Both the position numbers and the translations under genes were made by a program. 35,715 nucleotides of DNA from a virus. The first letter of the stretch is position 1; each line of letters starts with the position of its first letter. The notes beneath the pieces are model-generated. The model did not search any database. It saw only the letters and a program-made list of their open reading frames with translations, and had not been told where the DNA came from. Shown one piece after another: positions 4,150 to 34,578 of this stretch. Where the stretch lies: IMG/VR virus record IMGVR_UViG_3300042691_014743, positions 1 through 35,715 of that record, one strand, 5' to 3'.

Positions 4150-4158
4150 AGTGTAAAT
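4150..4158 (+). promoter_or_regulatory. AGTGTAAAT motif, copy 1 (role unknown)
   Basis: AGTGTAAAT lies in the nine-base gap between the polymerase and Clp-like genes and runs into the Clp ATG at 4157. The same nine bases occur before two other genes (7783-7791 and 9586-9594). It may be a phage-specific promoter element or a translation signal. A second ACAGTG follows directly after it. Confidence 0.3.
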
Positions 4159-6577
4159 GAATACAGTGCAAGAAATCAATTTCACGCCAAAGGCCAAAAG
4201 AGTCTTAGACGTTGCCAAACAAGCTTGCATAGAGAAAAAAATCGCTGAAATAAGCGATGGCTTCCTGTTTTATGCCCTGCTAAAATCGGACTCGATGATT
4301 GTGAACTCGGCTTTTAGCGGAATAAAGATTTCTCCACAAGAGCTTGCCGATGTTGTATGGAAAGCGCTTCCGTCAACTGTCAAAGGATCTTCAAAAGAAA
4401 ACGCGGAATTTGATCAGATTTCTAATAAGATTATCTCCGAATCTCTTACGTACTCAAAGCAGTACAGCCAAAACTATACCGGAGTAGAACATATCTTTAG
4501 ATCAGCGTTAACTCACTCTCCGTTTATTAAAAAATTCTTTAAAAAGAATGGTATTGATATTGGATACATTGCCGAAAAGATTGATTCTGGGTGTAAAAAT
4601 ATTTCTAACCCAAAGAAAAAGGTTTCTGCTCCAACTCAAGGATCTGAGCCTAATTTAAAATCTGCCTCAATCAAAAGCTATTGTATTAATTACAATGAGA
4701 AGGCAGCTAAGGGAGATTTTGACCTCATCTGCTTTAGAGAAAAAGAAGTCGAGCAGATGTCAGAAATCCTTTGCCGCAAACAAAAGAAGAATCCAATCAT
4801 TGTTGGAGAAGCTGGTGTAGGCAAGAGCGCTATCGTAGGGCTATTGGCAAAACATATTGTTGCTGGAGATTGTACCGAGTTTCTTCTTGGCAAGGTTATT
4901 TTGCAGCTTGATATGACCGCTCTTGTCGCTGGCACAAACCTTCGCGGCCAGTTTGAGGAGCGTCTCCATAAGATCCTAAATGAAGTTAAGGCGCAAAAGA
5001 ATATCATTCTGTTTATCGATGAGATTCATACAATTACTGGAATGGGTAATGACGAGGGGTCTCTTGATGCATCAAATATCTTAAAGCCTTATCTTGCTGG
5101 TGATGAGATCAGTTGTATTGGCGCAACAACCCAGAAAGAATACGAGAAATACTTCCAGAACGACTCGGCAATGAATCGCCGCTTTGAGCCTTTGTTCATC
5201 AAGGAACCCTCAAAGAAGGATACGTTAAAAATACTTAAAAACATAAAGAATCACTACGAGTTGTTTCACGCCGTACATTACCCAGATAAAATCTTGGAAG
5301 GCGTTGTTGATCTTTGCGAAAAGTATATTACTAATAGAAGATTCCCAGACAAGGCGATAGACTTGATGGATCACGTAGGCTCAAAGTCAAAGATTAAAAT
5401 CTACGCCAGACCAGAGCTATTTAAGGACTTGGAAAAAAAGCTTGCTGGTACAACAGAAGAGGACGAAATTTCTTTTATAGTAAAGGAATACGAGGACAGG
5501 TACAATCAATGGTTTTCGTCGCTCAAGGACTCTAAAAAAGAAGTAAGCAAGCAGGATCTTTATGCCGCTTTATCCGATAAGATTGGTGTATTCATAGATG
5601 CCAACGTCTCTGATTCAAAGTTCAAAAACATTTTTACAAATCTGCAAAAGCACGTATTTGGACAGGATGAAGCTTTGAGAAAAATTTCTAACTGCGTTGT
5701 TAGGTCTTCGTTTGGTCTTTCATCATCCAATAGACCTCTTGGCAGTTTTATGTTTTTGGGGCCGACAGGATCTGGGAAAACGTATCTTGCTAAGACTTTA
5801 GCAATGGAGGCTTTTGGCAGCGAGTCTAGTTTAGTTAGACTTGATATGTCAGAGTTTATGGAGCAGGCTTCGGTATCAAAGCTTATCGGTTCACCTCCTG
5901 GTTACATTGGATTTGGCGAATCCAATATTCTTTCTGAGCAGCTTCAGAAGTTCCCATCTAGTATCTTTTTGTTTGATGAGGTTGAGAAGGCTCATCCAGA
6001 TGTTATAAATGTATTACTGCAAATTATGGACAATGGCCAACTGACAACCTCAGTTGGGCGCAAGCTTGATTTTAAAAACTCCATCATCATTTTGACTGGC
6101 AATGTCGGCTTCCAATTTGCAGATAACAAAAGAATGGGATTCTTCCAAGCAGCCGCGAAAGCCTTGACTAAGGACGTTGTCAAAGAAAACTTGCAAAAGT
6201 TTTTCCGTCCAGAGTTCTTAGCTCGACTCAATGATATTGTTATATTTAACTCCTTGACAGATGACGCTTTACGAAAGATTGCTGACAAAGAAATTTCCAA
6301 GATCAAAGAGAGCCTTAAAGACAAACAAATAACATTTAACGTTTCAGAAGAAGTTTATGGATTTATTCTTAACGAGACAAAAAGCTCAAGCGATGGAGCG
6401 AGAAAAATTATCTTCTTTATAGAGAACGAATTAAAAACAAAGATCGTTGACGTTTTAGCTTCCGGCTCATATAATGATATTGTCGTATCATTAGATAACG
6501 GGACAATAAAAGTTGATGGAAAATCAAAAAAATTTCGTTCGACACGTAATACAGAGCACCGATATTCTCCCAATTGA
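4157..6577 (+). CDS. ClpA/ClpC-like double AAA+ protein unfoldase
   Basis: An 806-residue Hsp100 ATPase with the full ClpA/ClpC layout. The N-domain (about 1-145) resembles Clp_N (TPKAKRVLDVAKQ, GVEHIFRSAL). AAA-1 has Walker A GEAGVGKS (217-224), Walker B ILFIDE (284-289) and arginines 341-342. AAA-2 has Walker A GPTGSGKT (535-542) and Walker B IFLFDE (603-608), followed by the C-terminal D2 small domain. The linker between the AAA domains is short, as in ClpA, with no long coiled-coil as in ClpB. A tripeptide MGF (660-662) sits where ClpA has IGL and B. subtilis ClpC has VGF, the ClpP-docking loop, so it could feed substrates to a host or phage ClpP. No ClpP gene is in the window. It lies directly downstream of the polymerase, so a role in replication-protein turnover or remodelling is possible but only inferred. 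Confidence 0.9.
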   Translation: MNTVQEINFTPKAKRVLDVAKQACIEKKIAEISDGFLFYALLKSDSMIVNSAFSGIKISPQELADVVWKALPSTVKGSSKENAEFDQISNKIISESLTYSKQYSQNYTGVEHIFRSALTHSPFIKKFFKKNGIDIGYIAEKIDSGCKNISNPKKKVSAPTQGSEPNLKSASIKSYCINYNEKAAKGDFDLICFREKEVEQMSEILCRKQKKNPIIVGEAGVGKSAIVGLLAKHIVAGDCTEFLLGKVILQLDMTALVAGTNLRGQFEERLHKILNEVKAQKNIILFIDEIHTITGMGNDEGSLDASNILKPYLAGDEISCIGATTQKEYEKYFQNDSAMNRRFEPLFIKEPSKKDTLKILKNIKNHYELFHAVHYPDKILEGVVDLCEKYITNRRFPDKAIDLMDHVGSKSKIKIYARPELFKDLEKKLAGTTEEDEISFIVKEYEDRYNQWFSSLKDSKKEVSKQDLYAALSDKIGVFIDANVSDSKFKNIFTNLQKHVFGQDEALRKISNCVVRSSFGLSSSNRPLGSFMFLGPTGSGKTYLAKTLAMEAFGSESSLVRLDMSEFMEQASVSKLIGSPPGYIGFGESNILSEQLQKFPSSIFLFDEVEKAHPDVINVLLQIMDNGQLTTSVGRKLDFKNSIIILTGNVGFQFADNKRMGFFQAAAKALTKDVVKENLQKFFRPEFLARLNDIVIFNSLTDDALRKIADKEISKIKESLKDKQITFNVSEEVYGFILNETKSSSDGARKIIFFIENELKTKIVDVLASGSYNDIVVSLDNGTIKVDGKSKKFRSTRNTEHRYSPN

Positions 6578-18324: not shown

Positions 18325-21300
18325 TTATCTTTCAAGAAATAGGCTATCGCCTCTTGGATCGTACCATTCTCCATCTGCTCTAATTATATCGCTTCTTTCA
18401 CCAGGGCGAATAACAGATATTTCTTTGCCGTCCGCATCTTGAATATAAATATCTTTGTCGCCCGCATTAATAATTGAAGCGGTTGACCCTTCATCAACTG
18501 CTGCTGGAAGACTTAATGTTGAAGCACTTGCTGTATCAGCTAAGATAGTAGTATTTAAATTTTCTTCTGTAAGTGGAGTTATTATTTCTACTCTTTTTAC
18601 TTTGCCGCCAGAGCCTGAAACAGCAGTTCCATTATAAATAAATTCTACTCCAACAGCTGGGCTTGTGTTACAGCCTATGTCGCTCCAATTTATTGATGTC
18701 CCAAGTTCAATTATTTTATATTTATAGTCTTTTGTTAAACTAGCAGTTGTTGGGACAAATTCTTCATTTTCATTTCTACCTCCATTAAATGTAGTTCTTT
18801 CTATTTGTCTGGATGCTCTTTGTATTGGAGCTTCCTCTAAATAGCCGCTAACTACATCAGAGAGGACACCTGGTCCAAAATCATCCCAAGGAATAAATCT
18901 AAAGTAGTACCAAACTCCAGTTTGTAAATCATTTGATACTCTAAGTTCGTTCATATAGGATCTAGTTTTATAGATTGGATTATATTTATATAAATTTGTA
19001 TTGTTAACTGTGTCAGCGACAAATGATCCAGAGAGTCCAGTATAAACATCAACCGACCAAACATCTTTATTTGAAAAAGGAGAATAGCAGTTAAATTTTA
19101 TTTCTCCCTTTGAAACTTCTTCTGTTAAGACCGTAAATGTAACTCCAGAAAATCCAGTTTTATTAACTGGAATTTGCGAAAGATCTGCTACACCCAAAGT
19201 ATTTACTGCTATTTTTGGCACTTCTCTTCCTTCCTTAAAGCCGTATTGGTTATAATGATCAGCGCCCCAAACTTCTATCACTGTATCTTTACCATACCTT
19301 TCGTAATTTGTGATTAAATCATTATAAGAATAAACATAACCTCTCCAGTCATCGCTGCCGCCTCCTATATATGTTATGTTTATGCCAGTCCTATAAGTAG
19401 AGCCATCTAAATATGTAGCATGCTTAAATGCTCCAGAAATATGCGAAAACATAATTTCTGTATTTGGATCTTCGCTTCTGAGGAGATTATTACTTGGCGT
19501 TCTTCTTAATCCTGAACCTAAAATACCGTCCGCTCCACTTCCCCAAACAGCTATTCCAGTCTTAGATACATTTCCATAATATCCAGAAAGAATATAGTAA
19601 GGAGAATTCTGATAAGAATCAATAACATCTATTCTAGAATATGACGGCTTAACATTATAAGCCATAAATGTTCCAGTTTTGCTCTGACTAGTGTTATCTG
19701 TTACAACGACTCTAAGCCCTAAATTTCTTGAAGGAAGGACATTTCTCAAATCCGACGCCTCTCTACTTACTAGCCTTTTATTATCTGTTTCAGAAATAGA
19801 AAGAGAGAATTTATCATAAGGCTCTATGAGGGGAGTTAATGGCTGATATGCTTCATCAAGCACCTGTACAGATACTTTAGGTGGCAAGTCAATAAATGGA
19901 TTTTCCAACATTCTTTCTACAGAATCAATAATCCCGCCAGTTGGATCAACATATTTCCATCTAAAAGTTAGATTTTTTGAAGTAAAGTTTCCATTGCCAT
20001 TACCAGAAACACCAATTCCAGCAGCATTAGATATTTTATACAAGATGCTATTTGTATCAGCAGTATCAATAGTAAATCCTGTGGGAATTGTAGATGTTAT
20101 TGGAAACAAGCCTCCAGCACCAGAGCCGCTTAGGGTTGGGCTTGGCAAAACCATAATTCCAGTATTCCCACGAGAATCTGATAAAAATTTATATATAAGA
20201 CCTTGAGCATAAACATCAATATCATATTGGCCCCAGATTCGATTTATTGGAATACTTAAAGAAGTGACACCTGACGCTGTTGTATAAGGTTCAGATATTG
20301 AATCTCCTTCTGCTGGGGTAGAGTAGTCTGGCCTAGATACATAAATCTTGTATCCTAAAATTGGGCTTGTACTTGCTGACCAAGAAATATTTATTCCAGT
20401 GGGAACCGCGCCATCATACGTGAGACCAGTTGATGTTATAGAAACTCCATTAGGCTTTATAACTTTGTCAAATGGCGATTGGACATAAACAGATGGAGAT
20501 GTATTTAAAATATCTTTTTCAATAAACTCTTCTTTATTTGGATAAAATTCTACAGCAGCGATTGAATAAAGATTAGCCTCATCTTCTTTTACCCCTATCG
20601 TTTTGTAGAGTTGAGGCTCAACGCCTGATCCACTCAAAACATAAAGACTACCGGGTGGTATTCTATCCGTATTTGTAGGATTTTTATTAATTGATAAATC
20701 ATAAAATCCCCTTGGAAATCCGGTGCCATAAACTAAACCGCTATATCCAAGACCGCTAGATTCTGGAAGCTGCGCGATATTACTCTGTCCTATAGATCCG
20801 TTTCCTACGTAGACATCAATGCCAATATCCTTAAAAGCTCCTGATATGTGGGACGCAGTTAAAGTTTGATCTATATAAACCTTACCAGTCCCATAAAAAT
20901 CTTTTGGAAAACCTACTGTTGAATAGCCTTCGTTATTTCCAATGGCCCATTTTGATGCCGCACTATTTGAAGAATTATAATCAGTAGAAAAAGTAGAAGA
21001 CGTATGAGACCTTGTACAAACATATGGGACAGAAACTCCCCCGTTGGTAACTTTTACCTTATTACCTATTGAATAAGCCGTTGCAGTTGTCCATTCTGCA
21101 AAAGCAGACTCCTGCCTATTTCCAACGTCAGCTTGCATTATTGTATAGAAAGGGCGCAGTCTAGAATAAGCTAACAAATCTCTATAGGCAAATCTGATTT
21201 TACCAGTTTCAGAACTACCTTTGGAAGCTCTTTCTAATATTCTGTAGCCGCCTTTTACAAAGGCAGCAGCGTATCCAAAACTAGATGAGGTTGAAGAAAT

Positions 21301-23985
21301 ATCGTCTCCAATTTGATAAATTTCAGTCGCTGCGGCTCCCGTAGACCATACTGAGTCTGGAGAAAAAGAATTACTTATTTGATTTCCTCTTGTATAAACA
21401 ATAAGGACATCTCCATTATTTGAACCAACTCCTGTATGAACGGTATTTGTCCAAAATTCATTTAAATTAGTTAATGTTCCAGACGCCTCGACAGCCCCCA
21501 AAGATGAAATTCTAAACATTCTAATTTCATTAGAGCTAGAAACACCAGTTAAAGTATTATTTATTCTCAGCGTGCTATTTGAAGAAGATGAAAATTCAAT
21601 ATCCGCCGTCCAATTTGGTATAGTATCTATTATTTGCCCAGTTCCACCTGAGCCTGAAAATGTAATATCTATATCATTTGCAGAGAATACATCTACAACA
21701 TTTTGGTATTTTATTGAATCTGTTATTGGATTGCCTTCAAATACTGTTTGAGGAGGAAATTTATAAACTAATCCAGTGAGCACTGTTTCTCCGGTTATAG
21801 CCCCTGCACCAGAAATTCTACCTACAACTGGATAAACTTCCGTTTTTGCAGAAAGCCCCAAAAACTCCCCTCTCACAAGAACATCTGTATAATCATGCCC
21901 ATATGATTCTGATGCTGTTATTTTGTGTATGTTATATTTTTTAACTTGCGACTGTCTTCTTGACCTTATGTGATCAAGATTTCCAGAAAAATTACCATCT
22001 GCTCCGGTTAAATTATTTAAGTCTGAAACTGAATAACTACCAGATGGAACATGAATATAAATTCCAGAAGCTAAACCATTTTCAATTTTTCCGTCAATAA
22101 CTATTCTGTCCAGCCAAACATCTTCGCCCTGTAACGATCCTGGCTGCCCTGGAATGCCTATAACCATTTCCTTAGATATATATTCTACTTGTTGTTGAAC
22201 GTTTATTACCCTCCCAAATGTTTTCCCAACATTTCTTACCTCATCGCTGACAGCAAATATATCACCAGGCTGAAGATACGCAGCTTCAAGACCGGCGGTA
22301 AAAGTAATAGCGTCAGACTCAAACATTGCCCCAAATAAAATATATCTTCCAATTCTTCTAGCTTCAGATCTTGAAGTGCAGCCAGCAGCATTTACTTTGA
22401 ATGGATTTAAGCCAAATTTTCTAATGCCATCTGGATCTTCAATCAATTCCATTTTTGTTTTAAAGTCATCATATTTGTCATTATAAACAACTTCAACACT
22501 TGTAAAACGCTTATTTTTTGCAACCTCGCTATAATTAAATATACCATCTTTTACATTAGAGTTGCCAAAAAACATAACAGGCTGTTTAGGACGATCTGCA
22601 AAGAAAGAAAATCCTTCGGTACTCCAATATATTATTCCCTTGAAAGTAGTGGCAATTTCTTGAACGACCTTAAACGCTTCGTCCTTATTGTAAAACATAA
22701 TATTACAGGTGTATCTTGGCTCAAGACCACCTTTGCCATCTGGAACTCCTACAAATTTACCATTATCATCAACAGCATCACAGTATCTGCCAATATCATA
22801 AAGCGTCCACTTATCTATAGAGTACAGATCTATGTAGTTGCCCAAACCGTAATTAACATCAGTAAGAATATCATAAAGAACCCAAGCAGGATTATCTGTC
22901 CACGCGATTTTGAAAGTTCCATCCCAATCGCCGTAATATATTCTATTGCTATCGTAAAAATTGTTCGTGCAAAACTGTTGCAGCTTAATATCAGAGTCAT
23001 GCTGCATATTAAAAGAGCCGCCACCGCTATCGTCACTAAGCTCTCTAAGTGTTCTTGTGCCAGAAAATTGTGCATCTGCGTAAAAATAATATAATTGTAT
23101 GCAGTTTTCTCTAGCGTGGTTAAGCAAAACTTGATAAGTAGATGGCTGCATTATTTCTGGGGTCGATCCAGAAAAATAAATAACTTTTCTAACTGTATTT
23201 TTCCAAATTCTTTCTAAGGTATAATCTTCTGACTTTGTTCCTACTTCATCGGTTAAACTAAATTGGCTTTTTCTTAAAAAGAAATTTGCTATAGCGGTTT
23301 CTGCGGGGTCAACAGCTGGACTCAATTGCTTGTTGTCAGCCAAAGCGTCCATTAGTCTTTTATGCAAGTTTGTCTGATTCGCGCCTGTTGAGTCTGGAAC
23401 CTCTAGTTCAAAAAACAAATCTGTTTCAAAGTATGTAAAATTTTTTATTGTTTCTTGTGTTTTTTCATTTACAATTGTATCTGTTCCTTCAGCAGCAGTT
23501 TGCCAAATTGAAGCTCTTATATTGGTATAGCCAGAAATTAATTTTGCCAAAAACTCTCTTAGGTTTCTTTTTATCAAAGACCTCATCGCAAAATTCATAT
23601 TTTGATCTATCAAAAAGATTACATCAAGCGTAGTCGGGTTACCTTGATAGTTTGGACTTGAATAAACATAACGACGATCTAATCCATTACCGCCCAAAGG
23701 AAAATAATTAGAAGGAACTTTAACCTTCTTCATCTTTACGTCGTATTCTCTTGCAGGAACATTGGCAAACGTTCTTGAATCAAACTTTAATCCAATATGG
23801 GCCGTCAGGGGATATGAAAAATTTCTATCAATAATTTCATAAATAGCATCTACGCCGATACTCTTTTTAACTAATGGGCTGACAGTTTCCGCAGAAGTTC
23901 TTTGAATAGTCAAAAAACGATCCCTACCATCAACAGATGGAGGCAAAGTAATTCCTTCCTTACTCGGTAGGTTATCAATTGACAT
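18325..23985 (-). CDS. giant tail-tip/host-specificity protein, lambda J-like C-terminal portion, with inserted vWA-like domain
   Basis: An 1886-residue central tail-tip protein. About 1-115 and 335-640 match the hub part of lambda J-type proteins: NPAWVLYDILTDVNYGLG, CDAVDDNG, YTCNIMF, VVQEIATTFKGIIYWS, and ARRIGRYILFGAMFESDAITFTAGLEAAYLQPGDIFAV. A region of about 215 residues in between (about 117-330) looks like a von Willebrand A domain, beginning TTLDVIFLIDQNMNFAM and closing TLRELSDDSGGGSF. Its MIDAS is degenerate (D127-x-N129-x-N131). Further on are a CBM5/12-like module (about 960-1010, YSIGNKVKV...YVCTRSHTSS), an FN3 domain (about 1178-1270), and near 1750-1800 a short module shared with the I-like protein. 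It should contact the host receptor during adsorption. It is last in the tail-tip operon, and the J N-terminal part is encoded separately two genes upstream. Confidence 0.85.
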   Translation of the reverse strand: MSIDNLPSKEGITLPPSVDGRDRFLTIQRTSAETVSPLVKKSIGVDAIYEIIDRNFSYPLTAHIGLKFDSRTFANVPAREYDVKMKKVKVPSNYFPLGGNGLDRRYVYSSPNYQGNPTTLDVIFLIDQNMNFAMRSLIKRNLREFLAKLISGYTNIRASIWQTAAEGTDTIVNEKTQETIKNFTYFETDLFFELEVPDSTGANQTNLHKRLMDALADNKQLSPAVDPAETAIANFFLRKSQFSLTDEVGTKSEDYTLERIWKNTVRKVIYFSGSTPEIMQPSTYQVLLNHARENCIQLYYFYADAQFSGTRTLRELSDDSGGGSFNMQHDSDIKLQQFCTNNFYDSNRIYYGDWDGTFKIAWTDNPAWVLYDILTDVNYGLGNYIDLYSIDKWTLYDIGRYCDAVDDNGKFVGVPDGKGGLEPRYTCNIMFYNKDEAFKVVQEIATTFKGIIYWSTEGFSFFADRPKQPVMFFGNSNVKDGIFNYSEVAKNKRFTSVEVVYNDKYDDFKTKMELIEDPDGIRKFGLNPFKVNAAGCTSRSEARRIGRYILFGAMFESDAITFTAGLEAAYLQPGDIFAVSDEVRNVGKTFGRVINVQQQVEYISKEMVIGIPGQPGSLQGEDVWLDRIVIDGKIENGLASGIYIHVPSGSYSVSDLNNLTGADGNFSGNLDHIRSRRQSQVKKYNIHKITASESYGHDYTDVLVRGEFLGLSAKTEVYPVVGRISGAGAITGETVLTGLVYKFPPQTVFEGNPITDSIKYQNVVDVFSANDIDITFSGSGGTGQIIDTIPNWTADIEFSSSSNSTLRINNTLTGVSSSNEIRMFRISSLGAVEASGTLTNLNEFWTNTVHTGVGSNNGDVLIVYTRGNQISNSFSPDSVWSTGAAATEIYQIGDDISSTSSSFGYAAAFVKGGYRILERASKGSSETGKIRFAYRDLLAYSRLRPFYTIMQADVGNRQESAFAEWTTATAYSIGNKVKVTNGGVSVPYVCTRSHTSSTFSTDYNSSNSAASKWAIGNNEGYSTVGFPKDFYGTGKVYIDQTLTASHISGAFKDIGIDVYVGNGSIGQSNIAQLPESSGLGYSGLVYGTGFPRGFYDLSINKNPTNTDRIPPGSLYVLSGSGVEPQLYKTIGVKEDEANLYSIAAVEFYPNKEEFIEKDILNTSPSVYVQSPFDKVIKPNGVSITSTGLTYDGAVPTGINISWSASTSPILGYKIYVSRPDYSTPAEGDSISEPYTTASGVTSLSIPINRIWGQYDIDVYAQGLIYKFLSDSRGNTGIMVLPSPTLSGSGAGGLFPITSTIPTGFTIDTADTNSILYKISNAAGIGVSGNGNGNFTSKNLTFRWKYVDPTGGIIDSVERMLENPFIDLPPKVSVQVLDEAYQPLTPLIEPYDKFSLSISETDNKRLVSREASDLRNVLPSRNLGLRVVVTDNTSQSKTGTFMAYNVKPSYSRIDVIDSYQNSPYYILSGYYGNVSKTGIAVWGSGADGILGSGLRRTPSNNLLRSEDPNTEIMFSHISGAFKHATYLDGSTYRTGINITYIGGGSDDWRGYVYSYNDLITNYERYGKDTVIEVWGADHYNQYGFKEGREVPKIAVNTLGVADLSQIPVNKTGFSGVTFTVLTEEVSKGEIKFNCYSPFSNKDVWSVDVYTGLSGSFVADTVNNTNLYKYNPIYKTRSYMNELRVSNDLQTGVWYYFRFIPWDDFGPGVLSDVVSGYLEEAPIQRASRQIERTTFNGGRNENEEFVPTTASLTKDYKYKIIELGTSINWSDIGCNTSPAVGVEFIYNGTAVSGSGGKVKRVEIITPLTEENLNTTILADTASASTLSLPAAVDEGSTASIINAGDKDIYIQDADGKEISVIRPGERSDIIRADGEWYDPRGDSLFLER

Positions 23986-24001: not shown

Positions 24002-24553
24002 CTAAGCTATTATTGTAAACTCTCTTTCGTCATTAGTAGCGCCAGATGCAGTTAGACGAACTGATGGATTATCTGGAGAATGAGCGTCTATGTAAACTCG
24101 ATGCACACCAAGAGAAAGCCTTGAAGTAATTTCAGCTGGAATCGCAAAACTGAATGTTCCATCATCATTTATTTCAGAAGCTTTACATTCTACCTGATAT
24201 GCGGGAAGACTATCTGGAGGAGCACTTCTTGCTATATCAATTTGTGCAATAATTTTTATCGCTGGCTTTATAGCCAAAACGCTAGCTCCACTTACGAGTT
24301 TATAAGTTGCAGTTCCAGATAGAGTTATGGCTGTACCCCTGTTAAAAGTTGAACCAGATAAAGAATTAAATATCGCAGAGGTAGAACTTTGGCCTACTGG
24401 CAGAGCCGAATATACGATTCTATCAAACGCTGGCGGAATATATTCAGCATCTTGTCTTTTTCTAAGGGCGTATATAATTGGCAAAATATCAGAATAATTT
24501 CTTGAATTTATTCTTTTAGCTAAAAATTCTTCGTATGTTTGTGGTAAGGGCAT
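24002..24553 (-). CDS. tail-tip accessory protein with Ig-like half (unrecognised)
   Basis: A 183-residue protein. A helical N-terminus (TYEEFLAKRINSRNYSDILPIIYALRKRQDAEYIPPAFDRIVY) is followed by beta strands of an immunoglobulin-like type (TAITLSGTATYKLVSGASVLAIKPAIKIIAQIDIA, FSFAIPAEITSRLSLGVHRVYIDAHSPDN). It lies between the two J-like genes, 20 bases after the first and 16 bases before the second, so it probably joins them in the tail tip. I do not recognise a named family. Confidence 0.7.
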   Translation of the reverse strand: MPLPQTYEEFLAKRINSRNYSDILPIIYALRKRQDAEYIPPAFDRIVYSALPVGQSSTSAIFNSLSGSTFNRGTAITLSGTATYKLVSGASVLAIKPAIKIIAQIDIARSAPPDSLPAYQVECKASEINDDGTFSFAIPAEITSRLSLGVHRVYIDAHSPDNPSVRLTASGATNDEREFTIIA

Positions 24554-24573: not shown

Positions 24574-25503
24574 TTAAAACGCACCTATCGCAACCGGATT
24601 TTCTGGGACTGGTAATGGATTGAATATCCACAAGTCATTAAATGGACCGCCTGGAGCGGGGAAACCGCTGCCAACATTTCTGTTAGGTGGCGGTGTACCT
24701 CCTGGGGTGCCATTAGTTGGAGGTCTTGAGCCTGCATTCGCATAGCTGAAGCTTGAAGAGCTTTCATCAATCATATAAGCATAAGGAGATGTTACAATCC
24801 CGTCTATAATTACCCGCTTTTCGAAAACTTGAGAAGATCCTTCAACTCCATATTTTAACAATAATTCAACGGCAGCCCTTTTTTGATGGCCCATTTTTCC
24901 AGCCTCACCTTTAGCAGATCCTTCTGATACAGTGTCAAACAACTGATCGATCATAAGCCCTACTTTTAATTTTGATACATCTGCATTTCTAATATGATGA
25001 ACAAATACGAACGGATCTTGCGGCATATCTGGCCAGCCAGATCCTTTTGCCCATTTAGTAAAATTTTCAGGTGTTACATTTGGATTTGAAAGTTCGCTGC
25101 CATTAGGTCTAATATCTTGATCATTTGGATCTACCGGACCTAAAAGCTTGAAATTAGAATTTTTAGAAATATAAACGTGATTAAAATTACTCAATGGTTT
25201 TTGATTTTCCGTTCCCAAATTTATTTCCATCAAAATATTTCTATAATTATATTGTCCGATATTATTCATAACGGGCACTTTATTTAAATAAACTCCTTTT
25301 AACATATCTAATCCATAGACTTTTCTTCCAAATTGATCAACAAGTCCGTAAATCGGGCCTTCGCATAGGGCGTCAACGGCATCAGAAATAGATATAGATT
25401 TTAAAAAATTTTGACTATCTGGAGGTGGAGTTAGTCTTGGAATTGGAGCGTCCCCACCTTTTCCTTTACCTCTAATGAATCTATATTTATTTAAAATTTT
25501 CAT
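24574..25503 (-). CDS. lambda J-like N-terminal portion of the tail-tip protein
   Basis: A 309-residue protein. The stretch ISISDAVDALCEGPIYGLVDQFGRKVYGLDMLKGVYLNKVPVMN is the typical beginning of lambda J-like proteins ('SlaealgEGPI.Gl......ifLn.tP'). The later part (FVHHIRNADVSKLKVGLMIDQLF, AVELLLKYGVEGSSQ, FEKRVIIDGIVTSPYAY) continues that hub domain. It ends in a Gly/Pro-rich, probably flexible tail (GTPGGTPPPNRNVGSGFPAP). In lambda these regions belong to one chain, so J is split here. It starts in a TAATG overlap with the I-like gene. Confidence 0.75.
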   Translation of the reverse strand: MKILNKYRFIRGKGKGGDAPIPRLTPPPDSQNFLKSISISDAVDALCEGPIYGLVDQFGRKVYGLDMLKGVYLNKVPVMNNIGQYNYRNILMEINLGTENQKPLSNFNHVYISKNSNFKLLGPVDPNDQDIRPNGSELSNPNVTPENFTKWAKGSGWPDMPQDPFVFVHHIRNADVSKLKVGLMIDQLFDTVSEGSAKGEAGKMGHQKRAAVELLLKYGVEGSSQVFEKRVIIDGIVTSPYAYMIDESSSSFSYANAGSRPPTNGTPGGTPPPNRNVGSGFPAPGGPFNDLWIFNPLPVPENPVAIGAF

Positions 25504-28061
25504 TATGTTTTATAGTTTTCGATAGGCAAGGTAGCTGTCGTCAGATTAGCAAAAGACATATCCGTTTCTAACATTTTAATTTTAATTCTCACTGGAGAAG
25601 TTGTTAGCGTTATCCCGTCTAGTGTTACTTTACAGTTATAATTAGCTGAAAAAGAAGAATAACCATTACTGTATATTCCATTTATTTTCGGTCTTTCGGC
25701 TGAAAACTGCACCACCCTGTTTGCTTCTGAAGACTTTGACTCTGCATAATTATACAAATCTTCAAACACAAAACCATTTCCATTTGCAGGAGTGTTATTT
25801 GTTTTTGTAAAAACTGTTCCGATTCTAGGAGAACTTGCGCCAAAACTTCCCCAGTTTGTTGTTGTGCCGATATTTACTATCTTATACTGCTGTCCACTTT
25901 TCATATTAGCTACTGGAATCTGCCAAGATCTGGGCATAAACTTACTTTCGGCATAATTCATATCAGAAATTGGACGATATTTTAATGATTCACTTGGTAT
26001 AGTGACAAAATCAGAATAAGATCCATCCCAGTTAGTGTCGTATTGATAATAAAAGCTTATGCCATCTCCACCAATTACATCTTGAAATCTTCCATATATA
26101 TGGTGATAACCAGCAGTTAATAAGATCTCTCCGCTGGTAGATGGCATTCCGGTAATTTGTGCATTAGTTGTTGGATTAACAAAACCGTGATTCCCATACC
26201 AAGTGCTAGCAGATTGCCCATCAATATATAAATCAGCCGCATCATCAGAATCTATTTTAAAATTATATTTAACAACGGGATAAACAACACCGTCTCCAGT
26301 GCTTTGAGTAGAATTTTTTACAAATGTGACCCCTCTTTTTGGAGGAATCGCGATTCCTCCAGCCCCCGTTAATCCTATGCCGCTCCACTGACCAGTATCT
26401 CCTACTTTTAAAATTTCATACATTACACCGTTTGAAGCGTCTGGAACTTGTCTCTTTAAACCTTCAACAACTGGAATATACAAGTAACCCATAAATTCCA
26501 TCGCATAGTTATCAACATTTGTATTACTACGAATTGCGCGCTGCTCATTAGCCGCTTCAATTATCCCCTGATAAACGCCCTCTTTTTTATAGTTAGGCAT
26601 TCCACTCAACAACTCATCAAATTGTATTTTTGTGTCTATTGATGAGATTCCAGTCCAGTAAGGCAGATTGCCGGAAAAGTTAACTCCAGTGGATGGAAGC
26701 TGTCCAGAATTATTCTGCAAAACCTTGTAGATGCGCTCTTCTAATGGGACAGTTATTTTTTTCCAAAACTGTTCTCTAACCGCTCCATTTGAACCCGTTG
26801 GATTAGTTAATACTGCTTCATTTAAGCCGTCAAAACCTAAAAATAAACCACCTGTTCCTGTAACAAATGTTTGAAAATATACATCTGTTTGGGTTCCAGT
26901 AGTATATTTGACCACCTGACCACTATAATATCTCTCTGAAAAATCCCAATCTCCAATTCGCAATTGCTCAAATTGAGATGGGCCAAATTTTACTAGCTCT
27001 CCAGATCTATATGATACAAAGTATCCAGCGCCAGTGCTTGCAACATTTTCGTAATAAGTTCTTAGTCCATAATCTTTTGGATGGTAAGTCCTAAAAACTA
27101 AACCATTTTCAAAAGCATAGGGTTTCTCAATCTTTATTGCTGGGGGCTGTAAAATTCTTGGACCTTCAGACTCAACAATACTCCATTCATACTCAATATC
27201 TTCATCATAAGAATCCAAATTAACATTCGAAACTATTTCTCCATCTCTTTTTACAACTACTTCAACTGGAGCGCTTGTGACTTTATATGCATTTTTTGAA
27301 GTTATGTCTATATAAGAGTTTACAATCGTTGCCGAGGCGAATGAAATACTTTCATCTATATTAGCCGCTTGATCAGTTGAAAAAGAATTTTGGAAAAGTC
27401 CATCAGTTGAGTCAGGAGATTCGTTTTCGAACTCCAGAAGTGTATAATCATTAATAGGCTTATCAGCTGGAGTCATAAACTGTTTAACATCCAAGTTTAG
27501 TGGATGGTGGGATATGCCAGCGCTAATCTGAGACCCCGCTATTTTCAATCTTCCATAACCAACTGGAACAGCCTGACCTTGAGCCGTGTTATTTGGTTTG
27601 TTGCCAAATAGATAAGATTTTGATCCGGCCATAACTTCTTGATTAAAGTCTGGTTTTGGTTGCGGATAAAGCATCATCATTACTCCAGCAGTAACCGCAG
27701 CGACAGCCACGTAATACATTGTTGACATTATCAGTTCTGCTGTTGCTACTTCAAGACCCAAGTCCATCAATGCATACCATATAGCTGTTTCAATACCTGT
27801 CCCAGCGCCCCACACGATTGGAACTATATGAATTTCTTTTGGAATTTTTTTAATTTCAGCTTCTTTTGGATTAATAATTATATAATCATCAACAATAACT
27901 CTATAATGAACGCCCTTTACGGCAAGCTTTTTAGTTTCGTTTAAAAATCCTCTTCTATTTGCATTGATAGCTTGCAAAGCCTCCTTTGCAGAATTTACTT
28001 TAAATTTAAATTCTGATCCAAATTTATTTCTCAGTTCTCCGTGCAGATAAATACTAGTCAT
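25503..28061 (-). CDS. lambda I-like tail assembly protein with long C-terminal extension and PA14-like domain
   Basis: An 852-residue protein. About 1-190 match lambda I: a ubiquitin-like start (TSIYLHGELRNKFG...), then hydrophobic segments (ALMDLGLEVATAELIMSTMYYVAVAAVTAGVMMML) and NNTAQGQAVPVGYGRLKIAG, very close to the 'NTTAQGNPVPV.YGR' signature. Lambda I itself is only about 220 residues. The extension holds a CBM5/12-like stretch (about 368-440), a PA14-like domain (about 585-690; FKIDSDDAADLYIDG, GYHHIYGRFQDVIGG.GISFYYQY), and near 720-760 a module shared with the giant J-like protein (QQYKIVNIGTTTNWGSFG). The preceding gene overlaps it by eight bases, and AAAGGAG lies just before its ATG. 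Confidence 0.8.
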   Translation of the reverse strand: MTSIYLHGELRNKFGSEFKFKVNSAKEALQAINANRRGFLNETKKLAVKGVHYRVIVDDYIIINPKEAEIKKIPKEIHIVPIVWGAGTGIETAIWYALMDLGLEVATAELIMSTMYYVAVAAVTAGVMMMLYPQPKPDFNQEVMAGSKSYLFGNKPNNTAQGQAVPVGYGRLKIAGSQISAGISHHPLNLDVKQFMTPADKPINDYTLLEFENESPDSTDGLFQNSFSTDQAANIDESISFASATIVNSYIDITSKNAYKVTSAPVEVVVKRDGEIVSNVNLDSYDEDIEYEWSIVESEGPRILQPPAIKIEKPYAFENGLVFRTYHPKDYGLRTYYENVASTGAGYFVSYRSGELVKFGPSQFEQLRIGDWDFSERYYSGQVVKYTTGTQTDVYFQTFVTGTGGLFLGFDGLNEAVLTNPTGSNGAVREQFWKKITVPLEERIYKVLQNNSGQLPSTGVNFSGNLPYWTGISSIDTKIQFDELLSGMPNYKKEGVYQGIIEAANEQRAIRSNTNVDNYAMEFMGYLYIPVVEGLKRQVPDASNGVMYEILKVGDTGQWSGIGLTGAGGIAIPPKRGVTFVKNSTQSTGDGVVYPVVKYNFKIDSDDAADLYIDGQSASTWYGNHGFVNPTTNAQITGMPSTSGEILLTAGYHHIYGRFQDVIGGDGISFYYQYDTNWDGSYSDFVTIPSESLKYRPISDMNYAESKFMPRSWQIPVANMKSGQQYKIVNIGTTTNWGSFGASSPRIGTVFTKTNNTPANGNGFVFEDLYNYAESKSSEANRVVQFSAERPKINGIYSNGYSSFSANYNCKVTLDGITLTTSPVRIKIKMLETDMSFANLTTATLPIENYKT

Positions 28062-28416
28062 AACGCTCCTTTAACATTGCCGCATATTCTTTTTTAACTT
28101 GAATTGTTTTTGGAAGTAATAAATTAAATTTTTGACTCTGTTTGCTATAGATTACAAATGGAATACAGGAATTTTCACAGTTGAATCTATCAAATTTAGA
28201 TTCTTTTTCAGTCGAAATTGGATGAGTGTGATAAATTGCCGCTAATTTACCGCTTTTTATTTTTTGTACAATTTCCAATGGATGAATTTCAAATATATCA
28301 TTTTTAAAAATTGAAATATTTTGCGCTGGTTCTGATTTCAGCACCCCATCCTCTACAATTACAAAGCCACAAACCTCTTGCTCTGATGAGTTAGCGTGTT
28401 CAATTATCGAGTTCAT
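28054..28416 (-). CDS. lambda K-like JAMM metallopeptidase of the tail tip
   Basis: A 120-residue protein with a complete JAMM/MPN+ zinc peptidase motif: E14 (EVCGF), H63-T-H65-P, S73 and D76, in the spacing H-x-H-x7-S-x2-D. In lambda the corresponding protein K has this domain plus an NlpC/P60 peptidase; only the JAMM domain is here. It would act in tail assembly or in opening the cell wall during entry. I chose ATG at 28416 (complement), which overlaps the stop of the L-like gene by one base (TAATG). A longer frame to 28533 would run inside the L-like gene. Confidence 0.85.
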   Translation of the reverse strand: MNSIIEHANSSEQEVCGFVIVEDGVLKSEPAQNISIFKNDIFEIHPLEIVQKIKSGKLAAIYHTHPISTEKESKFDRFNCENSCIPFVIYSKQSQKFNLLLPKTIQVKKEYAAMLKERYD

Positions 28417-29933
28417 TACATAGAAATTGGATACTCTTCTGTTCCAGGGAATCCGCCGAAAGGCAAATAGCCGCTTCTCCCAAATCTTAATCTGCATCCT
28501 TTCAAGGTTCTTGAGCATTGGTCTGCAACCCAATGCTCTTTACTTAAAGTTGGAAACCTAGACATTGACGAAGAGTGGTTCTTAATACAAAAGTAAAATA
28601 CCGATAAGGGTTGCCAATTTGGAGAGGCATTACAGTCTCTTTTTGAAACTTTGACATTTTGATTATCTATGTATACATAATCTCCAGTTTTATAGGCCTT
28701 GTTATTTTCCCATCTTCCTTGGAAAGTTTCACCTTGAACAGTTGAATTGTCTAAAGCGGTAGATTTTGTTATAGACAATGTTGTAAAAAATCTTTGACCA
28801 GAACCCAAAGATCGAAACTCTGTCAGATCGTAAGAAAATCTAGAAGATGGGATCACTGTCCAAGAGGTGGAGTTTGGAACTTTATAATAAGCAATCAAGC
28901 CTTGCGACCCAGCAGATTCGTGGTGCCTTATTACGATTCTATGATAACCTTCTCCCAAAGTCATCGAAGAAGAAAATCCTTTAGGGTTAAGAATCGGAGG
29001 GCTTTCATTAGCATTCATAGCTCCTCCCTGATAATTATGTGCGACAAGTTGGCCTTTCACAAAAAAATCCGCAGAGTCGTCCATATCAAGACCGAAGGAA
29101 TATTGGCCACCCTGTCCATAATCTACTTTAAAATAACCAACAAATTCTGTCGCAGTGCCATCTCCATCAGGTATGGTCGTAGTGTCGATTAGAGCTTCAG
29201 AAGAAAAACTTGAAGAGGCGATTATGCTTGTTAGCCCAGATGTATCATTTGGGTTGCTTGATCCAGCACCCGTATAGTGCCTTCTTATTAATAAACCTTG
29301 AGTAAAATCTGTTGGTAAAGATAAAGGCCTATCGTTATCATCAGCAACTGGTGGCCCCATATATCTACACCCGTTGCCTCGATAATGAAAAGAACAGTAT
29401 CTCGCCATAACTGTTCTCCTTGGAAATGTCACATTTTCAATTTCTAATGGTGAGGCTAATTCAAATTCAACCATTGCCCTATTTTCGCTCTCTCTCCTCA
29501 AGATAAAAAATACCTGATCTTCTAGTCCAGCATTAGGATCAGCTGACCCATATGGATTCTTACCTTCTGCAAAATTAATATTGTCAAGAAATTTTACAAA
29601 AGTTCGTTTTCTAACAACTTTAGCCCCAACTAGATTATTATACCTTCTAATTAAATTAGATATAAAAAAATCTTGATTAGAAACTGCCAACTTTGGTCTT
29701 GGCAAACTGCCATCACCCTTAGTTTCAAACTCTGAACTTTGAATTGGGAAAGGGAGATACTCAACCCCTTGCCAATATATTGAGCCGTTTATTCCATTAG
29801 TTCCGCCGTGAATGTAAAGTTTATCGTCCGGCCTTTCGACATAGTTGTAGTGAATAATAAAAAATTCCAAAAGAGCGGTTGGCTCTAATGAAAACAATTC
29901 AGAATTTACTTTTTGACTAGACTCCCTTGACAT
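28416..29933 (-). CDS. lambda L-like minor tail protein with inserted PA14-like domain
   Basis: A 505-residue protein; lambda L is about 230. About 1-190 and 470-500 match lambda L: LLEFFIIHYN, IYWQGVEYLPFPIQ, PRPKLAVSN, VTFPRRTVMARYC, and the end CRLRFG...LPFGGFPG. Four cysteines, C180, C189, C473 and C480, sit where lambda L binds an iron-sulfur cluster. About 255-370 is a PA14-like carbohydrate-binding domain (YFKVDYGQGGQYSFGLDMDDSADFFVKG, GYHRIVIRHHE). Residues 407-468 form a CBM5/12-like module (W..NKAYKTGDYVY...YFCIKNHSSS...W). These two modules lie between the Cys pairs. AAAGGAA precedes the ATG. It is the first gene of the tail-tip operon seen here. Confidence 0.8.
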   Translation of the reverse strand: MSRESSQKVNSELFSLEPTALLEFFIIHYNYVERPDDKLYIHGGTNGINGSIYWQGVEYLPFPIQSSEFETKGDGSLPRPKLAVSNQDFFISNLIRRYNNLVGAKVVRKRTFVKFLDNINFAEGKNPYGSADPNAGLEDQVFFILRRESENRAMVEFELASPLEIENVTFPRRTVMARYCSFHYRGNGCRYMGPPVADDNDRPLSLPTDFTQGLLIRRHYTGAGSSNPNDTSGLTSIIASSSFSSEALIDTTTIPDGDGTATEFVGYFKVDYGQGGQYSFGLDMDDSADFFVKGQLVAHNYQGGAMNANESPPILNPKGFSSSMTLGEGYHRIVIRHHESAGSQGLIAYYKVPNSTSWTVIPSSRFSYDLTEFRSLGSGQRFFTTLSITKSTALDNSTVQGETFQGRWENNKAYKTGDYVYIDNQNVKVSKRDCNASPNWQPLSVFYFCIKNHSSSMSRFPTLSKEHWVADQCSRTLKGCRLRFGRSGYLPFGGFPGTEEYPISM

Positions 29934-33927: not shown

Positions 33928-34578
33928 ATGCCGTATCTTAACTCAAACATCCCAACTTTCTTCGCTTACCTCAAAAGCGACTTCCTGTACAATAATACTA
34001 ATAAAAATACAGAATACATTCCCTGCGAAGTATTCGGCATCACTTCCTTAACCAGAAGATGCCTAATGTTCCAGATTATGACGGAGCTTGGGTCAAGACA
34101 CGACAGAGTGCCGATTCATTATCTGGTTAAAGACCCAGAACACTCCAAGTTTGAGCTTGATTGGTTACAGCTTTGGGACTGCTACTCCAACACCCTTTCT
34201 GTTACCAGATACGAGTACCACAAGAACGCTTCTGTTGAAGTGCAGTTGAAGAATCGTGAATGGATTGAGGGCAAATATCTATTCACAATAGACTGGCACG
34301 ATAACCCCGACGCAGCTTACGGTTATTCTGAAATGGCTGGAGGTCACAAGTGCGGACATTTAATTTGGGGGCTACAGAACAAGAAAGGTGATCCGGTTAA
34401 TCAGTTATTCCTACAGCCAAACAACCGACTGACTTGGAAAGATGGCGGCGCTTTTATTTCTAAAAAGCTTGACAAACCTGACTGGAAGGTATTTACAAAG
34501 GAATTCTCCTGCGAAGGAGAGGGTAAATGGGTCGCAGAAGACAACTGGGACTACTTTTACCAATTCAAAAAGGAATGA
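33928..34578 (+). CDS. conserved phage hypothetical protein of 216 residues
   Basis: MPYLNSNIPTFFAYLKSDFLYNN... with a segment ITSLTRRCLMFQIMTELGSRHDRVPIHYLV that I recall from hypothetical proteins of large marine phages. It has a Trp-rich middle and end (FELDWLQLWDCYSN, YLFTIDWHDN, HLIWGLQNKKGD, EDNWDYFYQF). It looks like a soluble beta-rich protein. I do not know a function. It starts three bases after the FkbM stop and ends in an ATGA overlap with the next gene. Confidence 0.7.
   Translation: MPYLNSNIPTFFAYLKSDFLYNNTNKNTEYIPCEVFGITSLTRRCLMFQIMTELGSRHDRVPIHYLVKDPEHSKFELDWLQLWDCYSNTLSVTRYEYHKNASVEVQLKNREWIEGKYLFTIDWHDNPDAAYGYSEMAGGHKCGHLIWGLQNKKGDPVNQLFLQPNNRLTWKDGGAFISKKLDKPDWKVFTKEFSCEGEGKWVAEDNWDYFYQFKKE

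Follow-up and report, generated by a model that had tools for sequence, protein, structure and literature searches.

A predicted von Willebrand A domain in the hub region of a gpJ-type tail-tip protein from a lineage of uncultured phages

The tail-tip genes and the inserted domain

The window analyzed here is the whole of a 35,715-nucleotide stretch of virus DNA (IMG/VR record IMGVR_UViG_3300042691_014743, positions 1 to 35,715). Its tail-tip genes follow the lambda order L-K-I-J (L at 28416, a K-like gene at 28054, an I-like gene at 25503, and then the J pieces), and the ORF at 18325-23985, P0001, matches the J hub domain in sequence (Table 1). The initial annotation had called this protein a J-type tail-tip protein, and the PHROG 31, PF13550, and lambda gpJ matches agree. 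Lambda J is one chain, whereas in this family it is split, P0003 carrying the N-terminal part and P0001 the remainder, with P0002 encoded between them; the arrangement is the same in the window and in two related stretches, L014 and L015. No known relative of P0002 was found outside the family.

When the family profile was compared with solved J proteins, it aligned in only two stretches, profile positions ~30-103 with lambda gpJ residues 179-252 and positions 352-614 with residues 254-512 (PDB 8iyk, 8xcg), so that the same hub region lies on both flanks of an insert. The site corresponds to a tight turn at lambda gpJ residues 252-254, where solved J proteins have 2-3 residues and the P0001 family has ~235. 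An insertion inside the J hub domain had been proposed from the sequence, and the peptides on which that proposal relied are present in the minus-strand ORF: the first residue of TTLDVIFLIDQNMNFAM is residue 117 (window 23637), and the C-terminal peptide, with its GGGSF, ends near residue 325. The domain lies where the initial annotation placed it, at 22990-23640, with its borders corrected to those in Table 1. The peptide TLRELSDDSGGGSF, previously read as the last helix, is in fact the penultimate helix together with the last strand, and the last helix spans residues 332-342.

Table 1. Features of the tail-tip locus (residue numbers refer to P0001 unless another protein is named)
Feature	Window position	Strand	Evidence or conservation
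gpJ-type tail-tip hub and central-fibre protein, P0001, 1886 aa, without the N-terminal part of J	18325..23985	-	PHROG 31 E=7e-109, PF13550 E=3e-18; lambda gpJ 8iyk E=5e-65
J hub segment preceding the insert, residues 1-90	23716..23985	-	aligns with lambda gpJ 179-252
N-terminal linker PSNYFPLGGNGLDRRYVY..., residues 91-118, near-invariant	23632..23715	-	start also kept in insert-free L278/L304
vWA-fold domain (predicted), residues 119-343	22957..23631	-	AlphaFold2 models and Foldseek
Loop 1, DQNMN (127-131), in place of MIDAS DxSxS	23593..23607	-	D in 23/23, N129 in 21/23, residue 131 N/D/S/G/T
Loop 2, PDSTGANQTN (197-206)	23368..23397	-	P, D, G, N invariant; T205 in 21/23
Loop 3, SGSTPE (272-277), canonical Asp absent	23155..23172	-	
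C-terminal linker YDSNRIYYG, residues 344-352, back into the J hub	22930..22956	-	
J hub core after the insert, residues 353-605	22171..22929	-	aligns with lambda gpJ 254-512
Small 183-aa protein P0002 between the two J pieces	24002..24553	-	family-conserved, unrelated to J
Separate gene for the N-terminal J part (HDII-insertion region), P0003, 309 aa	24574..25503	-	PHROG 1727 E=3e-16; lambda gpJ 10-82
PA14-like insertion in the iron-sulphur domain of the gpL homologue, residues 206-469 of ORF 28416-29933	28527..29318	-	flanks align with lambda gpL 43-198 and 202-224

The gpL homologue is also enlarged, with ~265 extra residues placed between positions equivalent to lambda gpL 198 and 202, between the two cysteine pairs of the iron-sulphur domain; this insertion gives a weak, below-cut-off match to PA14, and the match occurs in L014 too. 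In L278, a relative without the J insert, the gpL homologue has almost nothing at that site (tblastn pieces 1413-2000 and 2040-2396), and in L278 and a second insert-free relative, L304, J and the P0003-like part are fused. The split J and the gpL insertion thus indicate that the whole tip has been rebuilt in this lineage. The gpI homologue (25503-28061, minus strand) has 852 aa versus 223 in lambda and resembles PA14 over residues 598-654 (E=5e-4, below the cut-off), and the gpK-like protein (28054-28533, minus strand; 159 aa) matches the JAB part only. Elsewhere on the plus strand, the window encodes an 806-aa Clp-type ATPase/protease-like protein (4157-6577; PHROG 4871 E=9e-202), which has relatives with at least 80% coverage in 53 phage records, and a ferredoxin-family protein (33928-34578; PHROG 3704 E=1e-45), a candidate auxiliary metabolic gene.

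Fold and top face of the insert

The insert was modelled with AlphaFold2 using a family alignment with 25 relatives. Modelled alone, it gave a pTM of 0.78 and a core pLDDT of 80-93; modelled within residues 1-620, positions 118-345 were again predicted well and the J core had a pLDDT below 50. The predicted order is b1(119-126)-a1(132-150)-b2(155-163)-b-hairpin-b3-a2-a3-b4(265-271)-a4(281-293)-b5(296-302)-a5(313-319)-b6(323-326)-a6(332-342), that is, a mainly parallel, helix-flanked central sheet with the b1-a1-b2-b3-a2-a3-b4-a4-b5-a5-b6-a6 succession of a von Willebrand A (vWA) domain. The vWA sheet, whose absence from a predicted structure would have counted against the initial annotation, is therefore present in the model. 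Two Foldseek searches of the PDB gave best E values of 3.5e-06 and 5e-06, and the matches listed, which we take to be vWA-fold proteins, were TFIIH p34/p44, Ku, Rpn10, Sec24, integrin beta I-like, inter-alpha-inhibitor, BatA-like, and von Willebrand factor (vWF) A1 and A3 domains, the A3 domain 1ao3 matching at 2.7e-05. In a viral structure library, most of the named top matches were VWFA proteins. The structural agreement is moderate (TM-scores of 0.43-0.59, normalized to target length for single-domain targets, with an rmsd of 5-9 A), and the insert is 8-15% identical in sequence to known vWA domains.

No VWA match resulted from a Pfam search with the insert alone, and family members reached only E=0.064 for VWA_3 (3/25 members) and E=0.086 for VWA (1/25), short of the cut-off; sequence alone could therefore not reveal the vWA fold. 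A PDB sequence search with the insert returned only chance matches (haemagglutinin HA2 and 2vn2).

Loop residues were counted in 23 representatives at the 90% level. None of the family sequences has DxSxS, the motif at that position being D-(Q/K)-(N/K)-(M/L)-(N/D/G/S/T); loop 3 reads FSGSTPE versus the canonical xTDGxP and lacks its Asp; and T205 is replaced by Gln in the two representatives that lack it. Since both DxSxS and the loop-3 Asp are missing, a canonical MIDAS (DxSxS ... T ... D) is excluded. The replacement of the MIDAS Ser residues by Asn (D127-x-N129-x-N131) had already been seen in the initial annotation, to which the loss of loop 3 and the absence of the loop-2 Thr from some members can be added. 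D127, N129, T205, D198, or E277 might still contribute to an unusual metal site. Conservation nevertheless extends to all three top loops, in which D127, P197, D198, G201, N206, and P276 are invariant; the top face therefore remains constrained.

The insert shares its fold with vWF A1/A3 and integrin I-like domains, from which it differs in having no canonical metal site. It shares the fold also with its top Foldseek matches, the vWA domains of TFIIH p34/p44, Ku70/80, Rpn10, and Sec23/24, in which MIDAS has a weak role or none and which are protein-protein scaffolds; those proteins are eukaryotic and not part of virions, and are only 8-15% identical to the insert.

Distribution of the insert and its empty site

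A profile search found relatives of the insert encoded in at least 116 IMG/VR stretches. A flank pattern was found in 91 stretches, all 91 of which read into the same insert, and a second pattern search recovered 108; the three sets overlap. The 58 distinct full-length inserts, which reduce to 23 at the 90% level, all lie at the same site, and loss of the insert was seen in none of these 58 sequences, down to ~48% insert identity. Because the 58 inserts share one site and solved J proteins align on both of its flanks, the insertion is not a chance arrangement. On the strength of the models and alignments, the insert is almost certainly a real vWA domain that lacks the canonical metal site and interrupts the hub of a gpJ-type tail-tip protein between strands.

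A tblastn search of 50,697 phage isolate records with the insert found no relative (one match at E=6), and no prophage or bacterial copy emerged when genome contigs were scanned with alignments of the insert. The J protein itself matched ~1,500 isolate records by tblastn, none covering most of the query, and the best isolate matches consisted of two pieces flanking the insert. Outside the family, 114 J loci among the matches listed were compared, 113 of them assessable, and none of the 113 has such an insert, the site holding at most 43 residues. An apparent distance of 437 residues at the site in L258 was a pattern miss, the site there reading VPNNYDP. Our literature search on vWA domains and phage tails found no description of one in a J hub; the matches for von Willebrand and phage tail concern other proteins, the cobaltochelatase CobT and a Kuttervirus VWA protein. 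The domain, which the initial annotation had called unexpected in this place, was thus found in no isolate, solved structure, or publication recovered here, and the same insertion, sought in other J proteins, proves to be a trait of one lineage.

L278 and L304, the closest insert-free relatives among the matches listed (39-51% identity), retain the start of the N-terminal linker (PSNYFPLKANGIDKRF and PSNYYPLDSQGMDRRKI, respectively) without the vWA domain, and so represent an empty site. Judged from these sequences, the linker start is older than the insert, and the vWA domain most likely entered a long loop that was already present. In another J group (L203, L206, L211, L230, L270, and L288), the loop is 43 residues long and contains two cysteines (VPSNYT.YD.G.C...YRR.D.C); insertion at this turn is thus a general phenomenon.

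Few phage receptor machines have been studied as thoroughly as J hubs, and insertions into these hubs have been described before: lambda and Salmonella phage Jersey carry other inserted domains in this part of the hub (PMC10721106, PMC11101478, PMC13243795). Lambda HDII-ins1/2 and Jersey HDII-ins3 resemble the present case in that the HDII region of a siphophage J protein accommodates an extra domain (PMC11101478, PMC13243795), but those with a named fold are Ig-like/FNIII, unlike the vWA domain of P0001, and lambda HDII-ins2 occupies residues 72-215 rather than the vWA site at lambda 252-254. To judge from the isolates, solved structures, and publications covered, a vWA domain in a J hub is new, whereas domain insertion in a siphophage hub is not.

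Possible roles of the domain in the tail tip

In lambda, the tail-tip channel has a width of 3 nm, decreasing to 2 nm (PMC11101478). A channel of 2-3 nm is too narrow for three 25-kDa domains, and we infer that the vWA domains lie outside the tip cone. There would be three copies, one per J chain. Their conserved top-face loops would dock with a fixed partner, for which another component of the tip, such as P0002 or the PA14-like insertion of gpL, is the likeliest candidate. Docking of this kind would brace or space the unusually large, multi-piece tip, and host recognition would be left to the long C-terminal fibre. We give this docking and bracing mechanism an even chance of being correct.

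Of the two roles suggested in the initial annotation, binding to the host surface and stabilization of the tip, conservation favors the latter. The mean identity of the insert to the window is 0.64, compared with 0.60-0.80 in the hub core (0.80 just after the insert) and 0.43-0.58 in the J regions beyond residue 620. Because the insert has diverged less than the fibre that follows it, docking or bracing is favored over host-range recognition, and the rebuilding of the tip makes it the preferred reading, with auxiliary adhesion second. Under that second reading, which we rate as less likely, the domain would recognize a conserved surface component shared by all hosts of the lineage, so that attachment is reversible until the C-terminal fibre binds the main receptor. 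The vWA fold mediates partner binding in blood and cell-adhesion proteins and is a classic adhesion fold, the conserved top loops would suit a conserved host ligand equally well, and the PA14-like regions of the gpL and gpI homologues also speak for adhesion, the PA14 fold being often sugar-binding. Set against this are the loss of the canonical MIDAS in all members and a divergence lower than that of the fibre, unlike that of typical host-range parts.

It is unlikely that the domain is a moving part of the trigger that shifts upon fibre binding and helps the hub to open, as the hub insertions of lambda gpJ might suggest: HDII-ins1, HDII-ins2, and HDII of lambda rotate on opening (PMC11101478), and near-invariant linkers join the insert to the HDII region, but most J proteins open without a vWA domain. 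Quite unlikely, too, is an integrin-like lever in which the conserved top face of the metal-free domain would, upon contact, bind a host-surface or tip ligand and the near-invariant linkers would relay a signal opening the hub. The decayed metal site might be taken to mark a passive relic kept by descent without specific function; the conservation of all three top loops and the absence of any loss among the 58 distinct inserts, even at ~48% identity, make this very improbable.

The growth of hub proteins is illustrated in this one lineage by a vWA domain in J, a PA14-like insertion in L, and the division of J into three genes. More than 100 contigs of this uncultured lineage keep the vWA domain, and the insert-free relatives provide a natural control; together, this lineage-wide retention and these relatives make a role of the domain in tip architecture or adsorption testable.
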